Positions 43-42,043 of a DNA stretch of 44,068 bases are shown here, piece by piece (the stretch's first letter is position 1; each line of letters begins with the position of its first letter). The translations under genes and the position numbers were made by a program. The stretch covers positions 1 through 44,068 of the forward strand of contig CANGYA010000011.1 in the NCBI GenBank assembly GCA_947457925.1, read 5' to 3'. The notes beneath the pieces were generated by a model. The model was not told where the DNA came from and ran no database searches. It saw only the letters and a program-made list of their open reading frames with translations. The stretch is from Cytophagales bacterium. Lineage in GTDB: Bacteria > Bacteroidota > Bacteroidia > Cytophagales > Thermoflexibacteraceae.

Positions 43-111
43 GTCTTCAAGAAGCTCTATAAAGATGACATCTTTTAGAAAGATGTCATCTTTATAGAGC
101 TTCTTGAAGAC
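43..111. terminator. Perfect 33-bp inverted repeat with TAG loop
   Basis: Positions 43-75 are exactly reverse-complementary to 79-111, leaving a three-base loop TAG. It lies 76 bases beyond the stop codon of the minus-strand carbamoyltransferase gene, so it could form a very stable RNA hairpin and end that transcript. There is no long U tract directly after it, and 33 perfect base pairs is far longer than a normal intrinsic terminator, so a mobile palindromic element is an alternative. Confidence 0.6.
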
Positions 112-12424: not shown

Positions 12425-12445
12425 AGTGATAGGGAAAATATCACT
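12425..12445 (-). terminator. Weak hairpin overlapping the end of the endonuclease gene
   Basis: Seven-base arms (AGTGATA and TATCACT, 12425-12431 and 12439-12445) include the TGA stop of the endonuclease gene. On the minus strand the stem is followed by a run of T. It would be a modest terminator for the RM operon. Confidence 0.35.
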
Positions 12446-13229
12446 TGAATTTTTTGAAATATGTATCTATTTCTTGTTGCATAGCTGCACCTGCTAATTC
12501 AAAGCAAGCTAATAAATCTCCGAAAGCACCATTTCCGCCTAAGTAATTCCAAAATTCTTCGGCTACTTTGAGTTCGTTAGGTAAATCTAACATTCCTTTC
12601 AACGTCCAACGCTGATAAGGCTCTGGGTGGTAAGGGTTATATGGAATAGCAATATAAGAATGAACTTGTGCGGTAGGGTTTTGTGCCAAAATAATAGCTA
12701 CCCATTCTAATAAAGTTCTTTTGAAATCTTTAAAATTACTGATATTAGGCTTGGCTGTTTTCAGGTCAAAAAGGTGTATTTCATTGTTTAGTGTGGTTAA
12801 ATACAAATCTACTTTGACGGTTTTGAGTTTTTGCATTTTACCCTTTTGACAGACTTGTCGTATTCTTTCAATTTCTTCGGGCTTATTTGGCAAACTACCC
12901 ATAGACAATTCGTTAATAATTTTTTGAATTTCTCTTTGTGCAAATTCACTGATTGCATCACCAACGGCAAACTGTACTTTGGCTGTTTGGAAATTATTTT
13001 GTGATAAGGCTATAGCTACAGGCTCAAAAATAGAACTCCCAAAAGTTGTATTCAAAGATTGAATAAAAGAAAACAAAGCCATTCTATCCTTGCCCAATAA
13101 AGCATGGTGAAAAGGCATATAGTTACTTTCTGGCTTGTAGTTTTTAAATTTGCTACGTAAGCAATTTTGTATAACTTCTTGAATTTGAAGTTTTTGGGTA
13201 TGGGATAAAGCCATTTGATTATCGAACAT
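12441..13229 (-). CDS. TdeIII-type type II restriction endonuclease
   Basis: A 262-residue protein recognised as a TdeIII-family (RE_TdeIII) endonuclease from its blocks MPFHHALLGKDRMALFSFIQ, FGSSIFEPVA, EIERIRQVCQKGKMQKLKT and KDFKRTLLEWVAI. The PD-(D/E)XK core is VKVDLYL followed by IHLFDLKTAKPN (Asp plus DxK). It would cleave unmethylated DNA at the site protected by the methyltransferase encoded two genes upstream. The recognition sequence cannot be inferred from this sequence. The ATG at 13229 overlaps the upstream small ORF by 11 bases. An in-frame ATG at 13214 (MALSHTQ) lies 4 bases past that stop and is an equally good start. The length is normal and nothing looks broken. Confidence 0.9.
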   Translation of the reverse strand: MFDNQMALSHTQKLQIQEVIQNCLRSKFKNYKPESNYMPFHHALLGKDRMALFSFIQSLNTTFGSSIFEPVAIALSQNNFQTAKVQFAVGDAISEFAQREIQKIINELSMGSLPNKPEEIERIRQVCQKGKMQKLKTVKVDLYLTTLNNEIHLFDLKTAKPNISNFKDFKRTLLEWVAIILAQNPTAQVHSYIAIPYNPYHPEPYQRWTLKGMLDLPNELKVAEEFWNYLGGNGAFGDLLACFELAGAAMQQEIDTYFKKFK

Positions 13230-13404
13230 TATTTGATATTGCCAAGCTAATTATTTCATACCAATTAATGTAATCCCCAACTTTTTCTTCCAACAACTTG
13301 AGTTCTTCTGCTGTCAGATTTCGGTTTAGTTCATCTTGGGCTACACTTTGTAAATCTTCTACTGTAAGTTGGTAAATAACTTTGTCAAGTTTTTTTGCTT
13401 CCAT
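13219..13404 (-). CDS. 61-aa protein within the RM operon, function unknown
   Basis: A small, acidic, mostly helical protein with the pattern LTVEDLQSVAQDELNRNLTA, EELKLLEEKVGDYINWYEII. It has no cysteines, signal peptide or membrane segment. It starts 3 bases after the methyltransferase stop and overlaps the start of the endonuclease gene, so it is translated as part of the RM operon. I do not recognise an established function. Short proteins with this L-x-x-ED...W(Y/D)-x-x-I pattern occur widely. A controller or specificity role, as for C proteins, is possible, but no helix-turn-helix is obvious. Confidence 0.75.
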   Translation of the reverse strand: MEAKKLDKVIYQLTVEDLQSVAQDELNRNLTAEELKLLEEKVGDYINWYEIISLAISNNVR

Positions 13405-13407
13405 TTT

Positions 13408-14994
13408 TTATTTTGTTTTCAAATGAAAAATAATCTCCGAATACGCCTGCTTATCCTTCTCCATACGGTTTAGCACAGGTCTTTTGTACTGATTGACAAT
13501 TTGCATACCTGCTATTGCTGCTATTTGTGGGTACAAATTGTTTTTGTCATTCGCCACTAAGAAAATATCATAATCTTCTGCCAAATACTTTTTACAGTTA
13601 TTCAGCACATTCGCAATCCCTACTACATAATCTTTTTGGGCTTGTTTGGTTTGTTTCTTAAACATTGCCCCTATTTCTTGGGCATCTTTCCGTTCAAAAC
13701 CAAACAAATCGTAGGCGTAGGCGTGCTGTTCGTGGTAGTCTATCAAGCCCACATAAGGCGGACTCGAAAAAATGCCTTTGATTTTTTGCTGCTTTGCCAA
13801 TTCATACAACGTAGGTTGCTCTTTTGCCAATACCTCAAAAATATCAATAGTTTCTGAATTTCCATTCATACAATACTGAAAAGTTGGCGTGCTAATTTGC
13901 TCAAATTCTCCTAATCTCTTAATCGTATCTTTGCAGTATCTTTCCCACCACGACACCATAGAAAACAAGGGTTTACAGATTTTTCCATGTTTTGCACAAT
14001 AATATGTAGTCGTTACAGGCTCTACCAACGTAGCCAAGTCCGCGTGAGTAGTAGCTCTGCAACTCCGAATAGTACGACTTAGAATAACCGTCAGCACTTG
14101 TTTAATTGCAAGGTTTTCTATCTTGTTGATTTGCTCAAAAACAAAATCAATCTCTTGGCGAATAGGCTGCAAATACCATTTGCCTAAAAACGTATCTTTT
14201 TGATTTTGAGTAATTTGCAAATTATATTTTTTAACTAATTCATTAAATTTAGCTAATACAACTTCTTCGTGTGTTTTGGTGTATTCAACTTCGTTAATTT
14301 CTTTTTTGCGTACCTTTATCTTAAATTCAGGGGAGGGAAAATAGGTTTTGTCATAGTCCGTTAAGAACTCTGCTAATTCTTTCTCAAAAGCTATGTAGGT
14401 AGCCGAAGCTACAAATTGTTTCAATGCTTTGGTAATTTGTTGGGTAACAGCCTCTAATGCTTTGGTGTCCACTGCCGAAACTTTGACATTGCCAATCAGG
14501 GCATTAAAAGCCGAAACGTCTATGCCTATGGCGTGTATGCCTAATTCATTGGCTTGTACTAAGGTCGTACCACTGCCACAAAAAGGGTCTAATACAATAT
14601 CTCCTTTCTTAAAAAAAGTTTGTGTTTTAAACTCGTCTGTATGTTCGTCTAAAAAATAGGCTACTAACTGCGGAATGTATTTGCCTTTGTAGGGGTGCAA
14701 ACGGTGTACGTGCTTGGTAGTTTCTGCCTCTTTCAGATTTTCAAAACTCAAAGCCCAATTCAAATCATTACCTAATTTGTCTTTCCAATCCAACTCACGA
14801 CTGCCGTAATAATTTTCATAGTATTTCACCAATTCTTGCTTATCAATCAAAACAGTTCCATTATTTCCTACTTTGGGGATTCTACCATAATTTATTAAAT
14901 AGGAAATATTAGAAGTAGTTACATTTTTTTTGATATGCTTACTTGCAAACTCGGCTGCTTCTTTGAGGGTAAGTAAGTCTATTTGTGTGGTCAT
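13408..14994 (-). CDS. Type II DNA methyltransferase (SPPY, probable N4-cytosine) with N-terminal HTH-like region
   Basis: A 528-residue enzyme. The SAM-binding motif I is DPFCGSGTT (residues 136-144) and the catalytic motif IV is SPPY (411-414). The tetrapeptide SPPY points to N4-cytosine methylation more than N6-adenine. About 270 residues separate the motifs, leaving room for a target-recognition domain. Residues 8-62 (TLKEAAEFASKH, TSNISYLINYGRIPKVG, VLIDKQELVKYYE) resemble an excisionase/MerR-type helix-turn-helix, which could bind the gene's own promoter. I chose the ATG at 14994: AGGAG at 15002-15006 gives ideal spacing, and the in-frame GTG at 15018 overlaps the -7 box. It is cotranscribed with the small protein and the endonuclease. 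Confidence 0.9.
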   Translation of the reverse strand: MTTQIDLLTLKEAAEFASKHIKKNVTTSNISYLINYGRIPKVGNNGTVLIDKQELVKYYENYYGSRELDWKDKLGNDLNWALSFENLKEAETTKHVHRLHPYKGKYIPQLVAYFLDEHTDEFKTQTFFKKGDIVLDPFCGSGTTLVQANELGIHAIGIDVSAFNALIGNVKVSAVDTKALEAVTQQITKALKQFVASATYIAFEKELAEFLTDYDKTYFPSPEFKIKVRKKEINEVEYTKTHEEVVLAKFNELVKKYNLQITQNQKDTFLGKWYLQPIRQEIDFVFEQINKIENLAIKQVLTVILSRTIRSCRATTHADLATLVEPVTTTYYCAKHGKICKPLFSMVSWWERYCKDTIKRLGEFEQISTPTFQYCMNGNSETIDIFEVLAKEQPTLYELAKQQKIKGIFSSPPYVGLIDYHEQHAYAYDLFGFERKDAQEIGAMFKKQTKQAQKDYVVGIANVLNNCKKYLAEDYDIFLVANDKNNLYPQIAAIAGMQIVNQYKRPVLNRMEKDKQAYSEIIFHLKTK

Positions 14995-15001
14995 TTCATT
15001 A

Positions 15002-15006
15002 CTCCT
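15002..15006 (-). promoter_or_regulatory. Shine-Dalgarno AGGAG of the DNA methyltransferase
   Basis: The minus strand reads AGGAG seven bases before ATG 14994. Clear Shine-Dalgarno sites are rare in Bacteroidota and rare in this window, so this one helps fix the start codon and hints at a horizontally acquired RM locus. Confidence 0.55.
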
Positions 15007-15017
15007 TTTATTTTTCA

Positions 15018-15025
15018 CAAAGTTA
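15018..15025 (-). promoter_or_regulatory. -7 promoter box of the RM operon
   Basis: The minus strand reads TAACTTTG, a full match to TAnnTTTG, with transcription expected to start around 15010. This leaves a very short leader before the ATG at 14994 and rules out the GTG at 15018 as start. No -33 TTTG is evident. Confidence 0.55.
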
Positions 15026-17670: not shown

Positions 17671-18594
17671 ATGAAAAAATCTCTTATTAACGAAATTAAA
17701 AGCATAAAGATAGAAAAAATATGGGGTTATTATGACTTCTATTGGGAGTTAGATAACCATATTAATATTTTAATTGGCGAAAATGGTAGTGGTAAAAGCA
17801 CTATAATAAATTTGCTATATGCTTTGTTAAGTTTTAATACAACTTTACTGAATAAATATGAATATCAGAATATTTTAGTTACAACTAATCTTGGAAATTT
17901 GAGTTTTAATAAAAAGGAAAAGCAAATTAAATTGAATGGAAGTAAAATAGAAGACACTGTTATCAATGAAGATATATCTTGTCAAATGGCATTTGTATCA
18001 ACCTTTGATAAACCTATTGAACCTAAAAGAAAACCCTCATCACCTATCAAAATTTTAGCAAAAAAAGTAACGCATTTAGATACAGAGCTATTAGACTTAA
18101 TTCAGCTTTTTGTAGAGTATCAATTAGATATTTATATTAATAATCCTTCTAATATTTACTACAAAATAGAACAACTATCAGAGGAGGAAAAGCTACAGAG
18201 GAAAAAGACTCTTGATTTATTTTTTGAACAAATTAATATTGTTTTTAAAAATAAGTATGATGTTTTTATTGCTCAAAATTATACATTATCTTTTATACAT
18301 AAATATACACAACAAAAAATAGATTTTACAAACCTTTCATCAGGCGAAAAACAATTATTAATCTTATTTTTAAAGGCGTTACTAACTAAAAATACCCCTC
18401 ATATTTTGTTATTAGACGAACCTGAAATTTCTTTACATATTAACGTGCAAGTCAATTTGATTAATTATTTATTGGCTTTAAATAATCAATCTCAATTAAT
18501 TATAGTAACTCATTCACCATCAATCGTACAAAAAGGCTACATGGATGCCTACAAAGAAATTGAAACCTTAAAGACATATTCGTATGCAAAATAG
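17671..18594 (+). CDS. AAA/ABC-type ATPase of a PARIS-like two-gene defence module (AriA-like)
   Basis: A 307-residue soluble ATPase. Walker A is GENGSGKST (36-44), the ABC signature is LSSGEKQ (222-228), Walker B is LLLDEPE (Asp249, Glu250) and the H-loop is VTHSPS (His281). The order and short helical insert fit the AAA_15/AAA_21 (OLD/SMC-like) group. It overlaps by 11 bases with a DUF4435 gene, the arrangement seen in PARIS (AriA ATPase with AriB DUF4435 effector). At 307 residues it is shorter than I would expect for AriA, so it may be a distinct, minimal variant. The region is far more A+T-rich than its neighbours: 18241-18300 has 10 G/C of 60, while 24301-24360 in the RND gene has 30 of 60. 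This suggests horizontal transfer. Confidence 0.85.
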   Translation: MKKSLINEIKSIKIEKIWGYYDFYWELDNHINILIGENGSGKSTIINLLYALLSFNTTLLNKYEYQNILVTTNLGNLSFNKKEKQIKLNGSKIEDTVINEDISCQMAFVSTFDKPIEPKRKPSSPIKILAKKVTHLDTELLDLIQLFVEYQLDIYINNPSNIYYKIEQLSEEEKLQRKKTLDLFFEQINIVFKNKYDVFIAQNYTLSFIHKYTQQKIDFTNLSSGEKQLLILFLKALLTKNTPHILLLDEPEISLHINVQVNLINYLLALNNQSQLIIVTHSPSIVQKGYMDAYKEIETLKTYSYAK

Positions 18595-19594
18595 CTGGTC
18601 AGATAATTTAAGTGGTTATTTTCATTCATTTGAAAAAGAAAAAACTACAATTACTTTAATTTGCGAAAATGAAATGGACTTTAGGTTTTGGCATAAACTA
18701 TTTACCCAAAATTTACCTGAAAATATAATCATTAATGCAAGCTATGGAGGTAATCATAGAGGTAAAAATGCCCTTATAAAAAATCATGAGGAGGCTTTAA
18801 CAGACAAACTATTATTATGTATCGATAGTGATTTTGACTATTTAATGGCACTTCCGCTATTATCTAATCCATTTGTTTTTCATACATACACTTATGCAGT
18901 TGAAAATCATAAATTATGTCCTAACCATTTACAAAGTTGGCTGCGAGAATTTACAGCTAGTACCTTTACTATTCAATTTAACTTTGTAGTATTTTTTAAT
19001 ACTTTATCTTCTATTATTTTTGATTTATTAAAATTTAATTTGTATTATTTAAAAACTAAAAACCATTTTTTTCAAATTACAGAAAAGCAATTATACGATT
19101 ATCTTAATATTCCTGATACAGAAAAAGAAGGTGTAAATAATGGTGAAGAATATTTGAATGCGATTAGGAAAAAAGTTGAGAAAAGAGTTGCTCAATTAAC
19201 TAACAAGGCTATTGAAGAAAGTTTAGATTGGACAGAAGTAGAAAACTTGCTAACCATCTATAACATAACTGCCGAGAACAGTTATTTATATATCAATGCT
19301 CACCCTCTATTTGACAATATATTAAAATTAGTAAAAGGTTTGGCAAAACACCATGCAAGGCAATATCATAAAGGCATAGTAGGAGTAGAGCAACAAAATA
19401 ACTATAAAAATATTATGGGGATATATCTCAAAATAGGCGATAAAGAGCTAATAGATGTAAAAATAGAAACAGAGTTACAAAACAACTACATAGGTTGTTG
19501 CATAAAACCTAATTCTTGTCCATTATTTGATAAAATTATAGAAGATATAAAAACTTACCATGTAACTTACCATGCTCTAAACAAGCAAAACTAA
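18584..19594 (+). CDS. DUF4435/TOPRIM effector partner (AriB-like)
   Basis: A 336-residue protein whose first 90 residues carry the DUF4435 pattern: TLICENEMDFRFW (acidic residues 28, 30 and 32), then GKNALI, then LLLCIDSDFDYL (Asp81, Asp83, Asp85). These make a TOPRIM-like metal centre, as in OLD-family and AriB nucleases. A conserved TYAVENHKLCP segment follows. In PARIS, AriB is held by AriA and released to cleave tRNA or arrest growth; a similar toxic role here is inference. The start codon overlaps the end of the ATPase gene, indicating coupled translation. The C-terminal 200 residues are less recognisable and include a hydrophobic, helix-rich stretch around 125-160. A strong terminator follows. 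Confidence 0.82.
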   Translation: MQNSWSDNLSGYFHSFEKEKTTITLICENEMDFRFWHKLFTQNLPENIIINASYGGNHRGKNALIKNHEEALTDKLLLCIDSDFDYLMALPLLSNPFVFHTYTYAVENHKLCPNHLQSWLREFTASTFTIQFNFVVFFNTLSSIIFDLLKFNLYYLKTKNHFFQITEKQLYDYLNIPDTEKEGVNNGEEYLNAIRKKVEKRVAQLTNKAIEESLDWTEVENLLTIYNITAENSYLYINAHPLFDNILKLVKGLAKHHARQYHKGIVGVEQQNNYKNIMGIYLKIGDKELIDVKIETELQNNYIGCCIKPNSCPLFDKIIEDIKTYHVTYHALNKQN

Positions 19595-19595
19595 G

Positions 19596-19637
19596 TTATG
19601 CTATTCTATAAACTTTACAATTTATAGAATAGCATAA
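19596..19637. terminator. Perfect 17-bp-arm hairpin between convergent genes
   Basis: Arms 19596-19612 and 19621-19637 are exactly complementary (TTATGCTATTCTATAAA) with loop CTTTACAA. It sits between the DUF4435 gene stop and the leucyl aminopeptidase stop, so it can end transcription from both sides. Confidence 0.7.
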
Positions 19638-39971: not shown

Positions 39972-40002
39972 TTTGCTTTTTTAAAAGTAGCATTTATATT
40001 TG
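39972..40002 (+). promoter_or_regulatory. Consensus Bacteroidota promoter of the RloA-like gene
   Basis: TTTG (39972-39975), a 19-base spacer and TATATTTG (39995-40002) match the -33/-7 consensus TTTG-N19-TAnnTTTG. This is the best promoter seen in the window. Transcription should start around 40008, about 25 bases before the ATG at 40034, at the centre of the palindrome described separately. Confidence 0.8.
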
Positions 40003-40033
40003 TGAATATTTCACAAATATAAATGCTACTTTT
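39983..40033. promoter_or_regulatory. Perfect 51-bp palindrome abutting the RloA-like start codon
   Basis: Arms 39983-40006 and 40010-40033 (24 bases each, AAAAGTAGCATTTATATTTG followed by TGAA and its complement) are perfect, with spacer TAT. The right arm ends exactly one base before ATG 40034. Each arm carries TATATTTG, so the -7 box exists symmetrically on both strands. A repressor binding the dyad could shut off the promoter. If transcribed through from the CHAT gene it would also fold as a hairpin and could terminate that transcript. Confidence 0.75.
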
Positions 40034-41356
40034 ATGTTTATTCAGTTTAGCGTTGCTAATTTCCGTTCCTTCAAAACTATGCAAACTTTAAGTATGCAAG
40101 CTGCTACTATTCGTTCAAAACAGCCTCAACTTGATGAAAACAGTGTTTTTGAAGTATCGCCTAAACTTCAACTTTTAACTACGAAAGCTATTTATGGAGC
40201 TAATGCAAGTGGAAAAAGCAATATCATAAAGGCATTGTTAGCTTTTATGTGGTCTATTAAACAGTCTGTAAGTATGCAAGATATTTTAAATCAATTAATT
40301 AAAAAATATGAATTAAGTACAGAAAATGATAATGAACCTACTTTTTTTCAATTAATTTTTACAGTAAAAAATAAAGAAAATAAGGATATTGTATATCGTT
40401 ATGGTTTTGAAGTCAAAGACAATGAAATCTTTACTGAATGGTTATTTGGCACACCCAAAAGGGTAGAAGTACCTTATTTTGTGCGTGAAGGCATGACAGT
40501 AACAGTGAATGAAAGGGTTTTTAAAGGGGCTAAAAAATTTGAAAATCTTAGTAAAAAAGGAGATAATGAAATTTTCAGAAATAACTCTTTATTTTTAAGT
40601 GCTACTGCTGCTATGGGAGTAACTGAAGCAAAAAATATTATAGATGTCATTGATAATCTTAGTATTCTTTCTGGTTTAGAAGACCACCAATTAAGACAAT
40701 TTATTAGTCAAAAATTTAAGGAAAGCAATGTGAGTACACAAAAAGAGATTTTACAATTTTTAAAATCTGCGGATTTGTGCATGGAAGCTATTTTTGTAAA
40801 AGACAATAACCAAGATGATTTTTTCAAAAACTTACCTAATGAGTTGAAAGAATTAGCCAAAAAAGGAGAAATTAAACCAACTCCTTTTTTTTATTCTACA
40901 CGCAGTAAGTATAATAGTGAAAATGAAAAAGTTGGAGAAGTTACCCAAAATATTGATGAGTGGGAGTCTGAAGGTACAAAAAAAATGCTTGATTTAAGTC
41001 TTTTATTACTTAGGACATTGGAGGAAGGACGAACTTTATTTATCGATGAGTTTGATGCACGTCTGCATCCTTTATTGACTAAAAAAATTGTGAGTTTGTT
41101 CAATTCAAAACTTACTAATCCTCATCATGCCCAACTTATTTTTGTAACGCATGATACAAGTCTGATGAAACCAAGTTTTTTAAGGCGTGACCAAATCTGT
41201 TTTGTAGAAAAAGATAAATTTGGTAGTTCTACACTCAAAACTTTAGTTGAATTTAAAGGCACTCGCAATGATGATTCTTATGAAAAAGAATATTTGAGAG
41301 GGGCTTATGGTGCTGTACCTTTTTTGAATAATTTTGAGAATGGATTTTTAAAATAG
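40034..41356 (+). CDS. RloA-like AAA ATPase of a two-gene ATPase-TOPRIM module
   Basis: A 440-residue ATPase starting MFIQFSVANFRSFKTMQ, the typical N-terminus of the AAA_15/RloA group. Walker A is GANASGKSN (55-63), Walker B is LFIDEFDARLHP and the H-loop is IFVTHDTSLM. The central part is a helical insert that looks like an OLD-type coiled-coil arm. It is followed 6 bases later by an RloB-like gene. RloAB pairs occur in restriction-linked and defence islands; a defence role is inference from the family. I chose the ATG at 40034. The in-frame ATG at 39875 would translate 53 residues of non-homologous sequence across the promoter palindrome. Confidence 0.87.
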   Translation: MFIQFSVANFRSFKTMQTLSMQAATIRSKQPQLDENSVFEVSPKLQLLTTKAIYGANASGKSNIIKALLAFMWSIKQSVSMQDILNQLIKKYELSTENDNEPTFFQLIFTVKNKENKDIVYRYGFEVKDNEIFTEWLFGTPKRVEVPYFVREGMTVTVNERVFKGAKKFENLSKKGDNEIFRNNSLFLSATAAMGVTEAKNIIDVIDNLSILSGLEDHQLRQFISQKFKESNVSTQKEILQFLKSADLCMEAIFVKDNNQDDFFKNLPNELKELAKKGEIKPTPFFYSTRSKYNSENEKVGEVTQNIDEWESEGTKKMLDLSLLLLRTLEEGRTLFIDEFDARLHPLLTKKIVSLFNSKLTNPHHAQLIFVTHDTSLMKPSFLRRDQICFVEKDKFGSSTLKTLVEFKGTRNDDSYEKEYLRGAYGAVPFLNNFENGFLK

Positions 41357-41362
41357 CCTTGC

Positions 41363-42043
41363 ATGACCTACATCAAACCAACAGATAAAAATAAAGCATG
41401 GGCAAAAGTAATTCTTAAAAAGAAGCCCTATAAAAATAATACTATTGAGAAGGCTAAATCTTTTTTAATTGTTTGCGAAGGAGAAACGGAAGAGTATTAT
41501 TTTAAATCTTTCCCTATTGTAACAGCAACAATAAAGGCGGTGGGGATAGGTATGTCTAATTTAGAATTAGTTGAATATGCAGAAAATTTAAGTAACTTAG
41601 ACGAGTACAAAGATTATGAAATTTGGTGTGTATTTGATTTTGATACAAACCCCAACATAGAAAACCAAAAACAAGATTACAATTTTGCTATTGAATATGC
41701 TGTAAAACAAGGTTTTAAAGTGGCTTATTCAAATGATGCTTTTGAACTTTGGTATGTTTTACACTACAAAGACATTGTAAGTGGTGAACTGCATCGTGAT
41801 GTTTATTTTGATTTTTTGGGCGAAAAATGGGATATAAATTACCGTAAAAATGGAAAAACTATTGAGTTTGCAAAGAAAGTATATGAAAAATTAGAAAATG
41901 ATACAGAAGCAAGTCAATCAGAAGCTATAAAAAGGGCTAAAAGATTATTTGAAAGTCAAAAAAATAAGCCTTATTCAGAACAAAACCCTTGTACTACGAT
42001 TTTTGAGTTGATAGAAGAATTAAATAAATACCTTAAAAAATAA
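41363..42043 (+). CDS. RloB-like TOPRIM protein
   Basis: A 226-residue protein with the RloB pattern: SFLIVCEGETEEYYFKSF (Glu39 and neighbours), EIWCVFDFDTN (Asp92, Asp94) and AYSNDAFELWYVLHY. The first two blocks form a TOPRIM-like acidic centre and the third is diagnostic of RloB. The basic N-terminus (KNKAWAKVILKKKPYKNN) may contact nucleic acid. It is encoded 6 bases after the RloA-like ATPase gene, so the two act together. The family is thought to be a nuclease or effector released or controlled by its ATPase. The target is not known. Confidence 0.87.
   Translation: MTYIKPTDKNKAWAKVILKKKPYKNNTIEKAKSFLIVCEGETEEYYFKSFPIVTATIKAVGIGMSNLELVEYAENLSNLDEYKDYEIWCVFDFDTNPNIENQKQDYNFAIEYAVKQGFKVAYSNDAFELWYVLHYKDIVSGELHRDVYFDFLGEKWDINYRKNGKTIEFAKKVYEKLENDTEASQSEAIKRAKRLFESQKNKPYSEQNPCTTIFELIEELNKYLKK

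Follow-up and report, generated by a model that had tools for sequence, protein, structure and literature searches.

A covarying dyad over the predicted transcription start of AbiL (rloA-rloB) operons as a putative operator

In AbiE, a type IV toxin-antitoxin system, the antitoxin AbiEi represses its own promoter by way of inverted repeats (PMC7319586, PMC3985639). AbiL consists of AbiLi, an AAA ATPase, and AbiLii/RloB, a TOPRIM protein (Deng et al., 1999, as relayed in PMC10440598), and has been described as an AAA antitoxin paired with a TOPRIM toxin (PMC10440598). In PARIS, AriB is a tRNA nuclease (PMC12409363). Within the openly accessible literature that we searched, no report was found of an operator, dyad or palindrome for AbiL or for RloA/RloB.

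The locus examined here lies in a window of 44,068 nucleotides, the whole stretch of Cytophagales DNA that was analysed. RloA/AbiLi (440 aa; 40034–41356, plus strand) is an AAA_21 ATPase by Pfam PF13304 (E 1e-29) and PADLOC AbiLi (E 1.4e-89), and RloB/AbiLii (226 aa; 41363–42043, plus strand) matches Pfam PF13707 (E 6e-42) and PADLOC AbiLii (E 3.5e-29). The rloB gene begins 6 nt past rloA, presumably in one operon, and alignments of RloA orthologs begin at residue 1. PADLOC, Pfam and the 6-nt gap agree on an AbiLi-type AAA ATPase gene followed by an AbiLii/RloB gene; RloA and RloB thus match both AbiL families, adjoin, and stand in the same gene order, and it is on these family matches and this order that the assignment to AbiL is based. 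The RloA model resembles SMC/Rad50/PtuA-like ATPases (pLDDT 88; Foldseek E 5e-11 to PtuA), while RloB was modeled as a small alpha/beta protein for which a Foldseek search of the PDB gave no significant match; sequence searches of the PDB returned no relevant match, and no recognised DNA-binding domain was found in either protein. Three defence systems share the window: AbiL, an AriA/AriB-like (PARIS) pair at 17671–19594 (PADLOC AriA E 2e-45, AriB E 4e-33) with a 17-nt inverted repeat just 3' of its genes (19596–19637), and Type II methyltransferase and restriction enzyme genes on the minus strand at 12441–15018 (PADLOC E 3e-232 and 3e-17).

Immediately ahead of rloA is an inverted repeat without mismatch, with 25-nt arms at 39982–40006 and 40010–40034 around the centre TAT (40007–40009). 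The right arm runs into the RloA start codon, its last paired base being the A of that ATG (40034). An earlier reading of the same DNA (hereafter the sequence-only reading) had reported a perfect repeat with 24-nt arms at 39983–40033, which is borne out with one additional pair, T39982–A40034. The chance of such a repeat in 44 kb of random sequence is negligible; its arm length is nevertheless ordinary for the source genome, since a census covering 0.80 of 4.86 Mb returned 119 perfect palindromes with arms of at least 14 nt, 38 with arms of at least 20 and 22 with arms of at least 25, mostly intergenic and frequently right behind stop codons. The comparison set, 0.33 Mb from relatives, held 16 palindromes with arms of 14–19 nt and 2 with arms of at least 20. 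Contact with a start codon was seen for the rloA palindrome alone among the 119. The sequence-only reading had raised the prospect of the same palindrome at many unrelated intergenic sites; a genome search placed it at a single site with no second copy, which rules out a dispersed palindromic repeat family.

The heavy load of long perfect palindromes is evident throughout the source genome (L033–L074 and the window). Many have a common core (AAAGATGACATCTTT, TAGAACGGACTTTAGTCCGTT) with palindromic flanks that vary between copies, as if perfected by template switching. Additionally, a second long palindrome in the window (43–111), GTCTTCAAGAAGCTCTATAAAGATGACATCTTT with 33-nt arms, also stands at the start of other contigs (L036 52–120; L037 15–83; L045 15–83; L047 1–47; L050 48–116) and is probably a repeat family that breaks the assembly.

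A complete promoter reads into rloA across the left arm. The -33 element TTTG (39972–39975, plus strand) is followed after 19 nt by the -7 box TATATTTG (39995–40002, plus strand), which carries the sigma-A consensus TAnnTTTG, so that both boxes and their spacing agree with the Bacteroidota sigma-A promoter (TTTG/TAnnTTTG; PMC9723704), taken here as TTG or TTTG ~19–23 nt upstream of the box. Orthologs keep the -7 box ~25–32 nt ahead of the ATG, with TTG enriched 19–22 nt upstream of it. In Flavobacterium, the sigma-A box TAnnTTTG occupies -12 to -5 (PMC9723704), and this position predicts a +1 at 40007 (plus strand), the first base of the dyad centre. Both the TTTG 19 bases upstream of the box and a start near the dyad centre had been put forward in the sequence-only reading, and both hold up, the second as a prediction from the consensus. 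A dyad centred on +1 is a feature of the rloA promoter that falls outside the Bacteroidota sigma-A consensus. The same reading had proposed an identical -7 box facing both ways, and a mirror copy of TATATTTG does exist (40014–40021, minus strand); however, where the mirror image of the -33 TTTG would stand, the minus strand reads TGAA, which leaves the forward promoter as the sole complete one, and the mirror box is missing in the closest relatives. A bidirectional promoter as a conserved function was rejected on these grounds.

The upstream regions of orthologs mostly lack the long palindrome but have a shorter dyad at the equivalent position, with the common 19-bp pattern TTTG-N11-CAAA. In the window this core dyad, the proposed operator, is TTTGTGA-ATATT-TCACAAA (39999–40017); it reads TTTGTGA-AATAA-TCACAAA in the closest ortholog (L087, 58% identical), TTTGTGA-ACTTT-TCACGAA in L053 (53%, GTDB locus) and TATTTGTGAA-AAA-TTCACAAATA in L088 (48%). 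When 37 Bacteroidota representatives were picked by a perfect TAnnTTTG, ignoring the dyad, CAAA occurred at N=11 in 17 of them, against 0–2 for other spacings from 3 to 21. Exact TTTG-N11-CAAA was present before 48 of 136 non-redundant RloA representatives (<70% identity, several phyla) and absent from the remaining two thirds or so, compared with 27 of 1,339 control genes drawn from loci of the same types. Requiring two or more of the three inner pairs as well gave counts of 28 for RloA and 11 for controls (Fisher p = 5e-22), a conservative contrast because the 11 include alternative-start RloA genes or neighbours that share the site.

AbiL operons on plasmids and phages share this geometry: TTTTGTCA-N5-TGACAAAA in Klebsiella, TTTTGGT-N7-ACCAAAA in Psychrobacter, TTGAGA-N5-TCTCAA in Enterococcus and TTGCA-N7-TGCAA in Rhodococcus. 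Loci on viral contigs have TTTTTTGACA-N5-TGTCAAAAAA, TTTTTGGTAA-N3-TTACCAAAAA and TTTTTGCGGA-N3-TCCGCAAAAA, and in the version on an E. coli plasmid, TTTTTTCGC-N7-GCGAAAAAA, the centre is the same but the ends are TTTC/GAAA. Several other plasmid or phage AbiL operons, e.g., those of Shinella, Agrobacterium, Selenomonas and a Lactococcus prophage, showed no clear N11 dyad. The dyad is retained on small plasmids with few genes besides AbiL, and it precedes AbiL operons whose upstream genes differ. Searching before rloA orthologs, a check suggested in the sequence-only reading, therefore recovered the core dyad and not the full long palindrome, and the idea of a dedicated control element of the defence pair stands for the core, which recurs across phyla and covaries. 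No close relatives of P0001 were found among the viral contigs, and a neighbour search with a UbiE-like protein in a same-genus genome did not yield a same-locus comparison.

Among generic promoters, TTTG-N11-CAAA was found in 6 of 86 in the source genome, rloA's included, and in 0 of 23 in relatives. Those in the source genome include the promoter of a putative lipoprotein gene (L052 4719–4766), inside a palindrome with 20-nt arms, as well as promoters upstream of a SpoIIE-type phosphatase gene (L048, 17547, minus strand) and a GyrA/ParC-like gene (L063, 10884, plus strand). The short gap ahead of the AriAB-like pair contains no TTTG-N11-CAAA.

Covariation was scored at sites chosen solely by their TTTG and CAAA anchors. 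Of the 147 cells that make up the three inner pairs, 88 were Watson-Crick, compared with 48±5.6 for shuffled halves, and background sites gave 0.25–0.32 Watson-Crick per inner pair. An independent pair counter found 47 double-changed cells vs. 19.9±5.0, and the covariation score was 0.253 vs. 0.102±0.018, neither reached in any of 500 shuffles; these shuffle figures are not probabilities because shuffles ignore relatedness, whereas controls with the partner slid by 1–3 columns preserve it, and there the signal was gone.

The functional element is, in our judgment at somewhat better than even confidence, the 19-bp core dyad, acting as an operator where transcription of the AbiL operon would begin and bound by a putative dimeric repressor that is likely a product of the operon. 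This reading draws on anatomy, conservation, spacing, covariation and the overlap with a consensus promoter, and from these we infer protein binding, repression, the identity of the regulator and the origin of the long arms. In the core dyad TTTGTGA-N5-TCACAAA the left half and the -7 box have TTTG in common, and with transcription starting from the dyad centre a bound dimer would block RNA polymerase. Relief of binding would then allow an mRNA from 40007 whose leader is the right arm alone, with no hairpin, while the outer-arm pairs may supply an extra hairpin to dampen read-through. As in toxin-antitoxin operators, a dyad lies over the promoter and start and is kept with its operon, and the earlier suggestion that the geometry fits a repressor dimer agrees with a core that is suited to one, recurs across phyla and covaries. 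The regulator would most likely be RloA, RloB or an RloA-RloB complex, giving toxin-antitoxin-like autoregulation; the retention of the dyad on small plasmids with little besides AbiL favors an AbiL product as the binder. Naming the regulator through operator-protein covariation gave no signal, as operator similarity did not correlate with RloA or RloB similarity, either globally or in windows. A cognate-regulator model would predict such a correlation at least locally, so its absence is a real weakness, and it keeps in play a host regulator, or a binder that recognises structure and not sequence. Far more tentatively, one type of operator with variable specificity might run through the whole AbiL family and be recognised by the systems' own SMC/Rad50-like ATPase, TOPRIM protein or both, without a classical DNA-binding domain, such that operator binding and phage sensing would be coupled in one complex.

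The lack of a link between dyad sequence and RloA/RloB sequence would also suit a dyad that serves a host chromosomal repressor and no AbiL protein, and the motif's presence at a few other promoters of the source genome (5 of 85) points in the same direction. We nonetheless regard a host repressor as unlikely, given that hosts from different phyla, and small plasmids too, have this layout, and that TGA/TCA is common to the closest AbiL relatives from different host families.

Covariation with free choice of the inner bases would also be expected of a dyad that acts in RNA, either as a 5' stem-loop, possibly mimicking a tRNA anticodon stem-loop for an RloB nuclease, or as a read-through hairpin hiding the RloA start codon. 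The related TOPRIM enzyme AriB cleaves the anticodon stem (PMC12409363); read-through RNA containing the full palindrome would fold into a hairpin of -30 kcal/mol over the leader; and in several Gammaproteobacteria the dyad lies 11–16 nt past a -10-like hexamer and would be transcribed. In Bacteroidota, however, the -7 box closes with the TTTG of the dyad: 16 of 27 Bacteroidota sites carry TA where the box requires it, vs. 3 of 13 in other hosts. The start would then fall inside the dyad, leaving the primary mRNA unable to pair into the hairpin, and RNA taken from the predicted start showed no better folding than its shuffles. Mismatches show no G.T excess (10 G.T and 10 A.C), and loop bases outside Bacteroidota are A/T without strand preference. 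With no G.T excess and a Bacteroidota start expected inside the dyad, pairing at the DNA level is the better explanation. We regard an RNA role as rather improbable overall, although one is possible in some Gammaproteobacteria. A DNA operator fits the Bacteroidota and Gammaproteobacteria arrangements alike. The alternative offered in the sequence-only reading, a read-through hairpin masking the ATG, would form, but relatives do not conserve it, and a transcript begun at the conserved promoter has no left arm.

What lies outside the core is of restricted distribution. Beyond TTTG/CAAA, orthologs have a median of 1 extra contiguous pair, with more than 3 found solely in the window (17), L140 (16), L223 (12) and L148 (11), and in L140 and L148 the long-arm site is farther upstream. 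A conserved long palindrome was rejected, as it is missing from most orthologs and most relatives keep an arm of ~7–10 bp; the earlier supposition that the full 24/25-bp arms are the functional element is likewise not supported. At -55 to -13 of rloA, L223 (IMGVR_UViG_2786546143_000001) has a perfect palindrome with 20-nt arms, which is an independent long version on the same core. The right-arm GCTACTT ahead of the ATG is also present in L087 (58% identical), whereas its left-arm complement AAGTAGC is not, so, going by this one relative, the right arm was probably the template from which the left one was copied. The outer pairs are private to the source genome, probably through later template-switch-like copying around a pre-existing dyad. 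A pattern scan scored the outer arms as similar to a weak terminator of the upstream CHAT gene; this likeness, like the read-through hairpin, may be a side effect.

That the palindrome is in fact the terminator of the CHAT gene, touching the AbiL promoter by chance, would accord with the terminator-like score of its outer arms (AAAAGTAGC...GCTACTTTT) and with the many palindromes of the source genome that sit directly behind stop codons. Against this, the stem is AT-rich with the tail TTTTATGTTTAT, the conserved core runs from T on its left side to A on its right, opposite to the order in an intrinsic terminator, the hairpin starts 70 nt past the CHAT stop with no proper U-run, and the core also precedes AbiL operons with other upstream genes; we consider this reading very improbable. 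Least probable of all is a functionless mutational product, a random quasi-palindrome perfected by template switching, which matches the excess of arms of at least 20 nt (38 in 0.80 Mb vs. 2 in 0.33 Mb of relatives) and the presence in L087 of right-arm GCTACTT without left-arm AAGTAGC, but accounts for the outer arms alone and not for a core whose conservation and covariation extend to relatives that have no long arms.

The finding to keep is the family-wide covarying dyad, not the length of the palindrome. A cis-element conserved from Bacteroidota to Proteobacteria and Bacillota is a concrete, mutable target that suggests toxin-antitoxin-like autoregulation of AbiL operons and bears on how AbiL and related ATPase-TOPRIM defence pairs stay off. 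It also provides a sequence signature with which AbiL operons can be found or checked, and the identity of the protein that reads the DNA is directly testable with short oligonucleotides.

With respect to known systems, the ABC ATPase and TOPRIM architecture of PARIS (AriA-AriB) is like that of RloA/RloB, although RloA and RloB score best as AbiL. AbiE and the AbiL operon described here are both bicistronic abortive-infection operons with inverted repeats over promoter and start, with autoregulation proposed for AbiL. AbiE has two 23-bp repeats and a proven repressor antitoxin, whereas AbiL has one 19-bp dyad of different geometry, unrelated proteins and a putative operator; an AbiE-type operator was accordingly rejected, the dyad being single and an AbiEi homolog being absent from the RloA/RloB pair. 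AbiE is the closest known arrangement, and by analogy the AbiL dyad may work likewise without being a member of that system.
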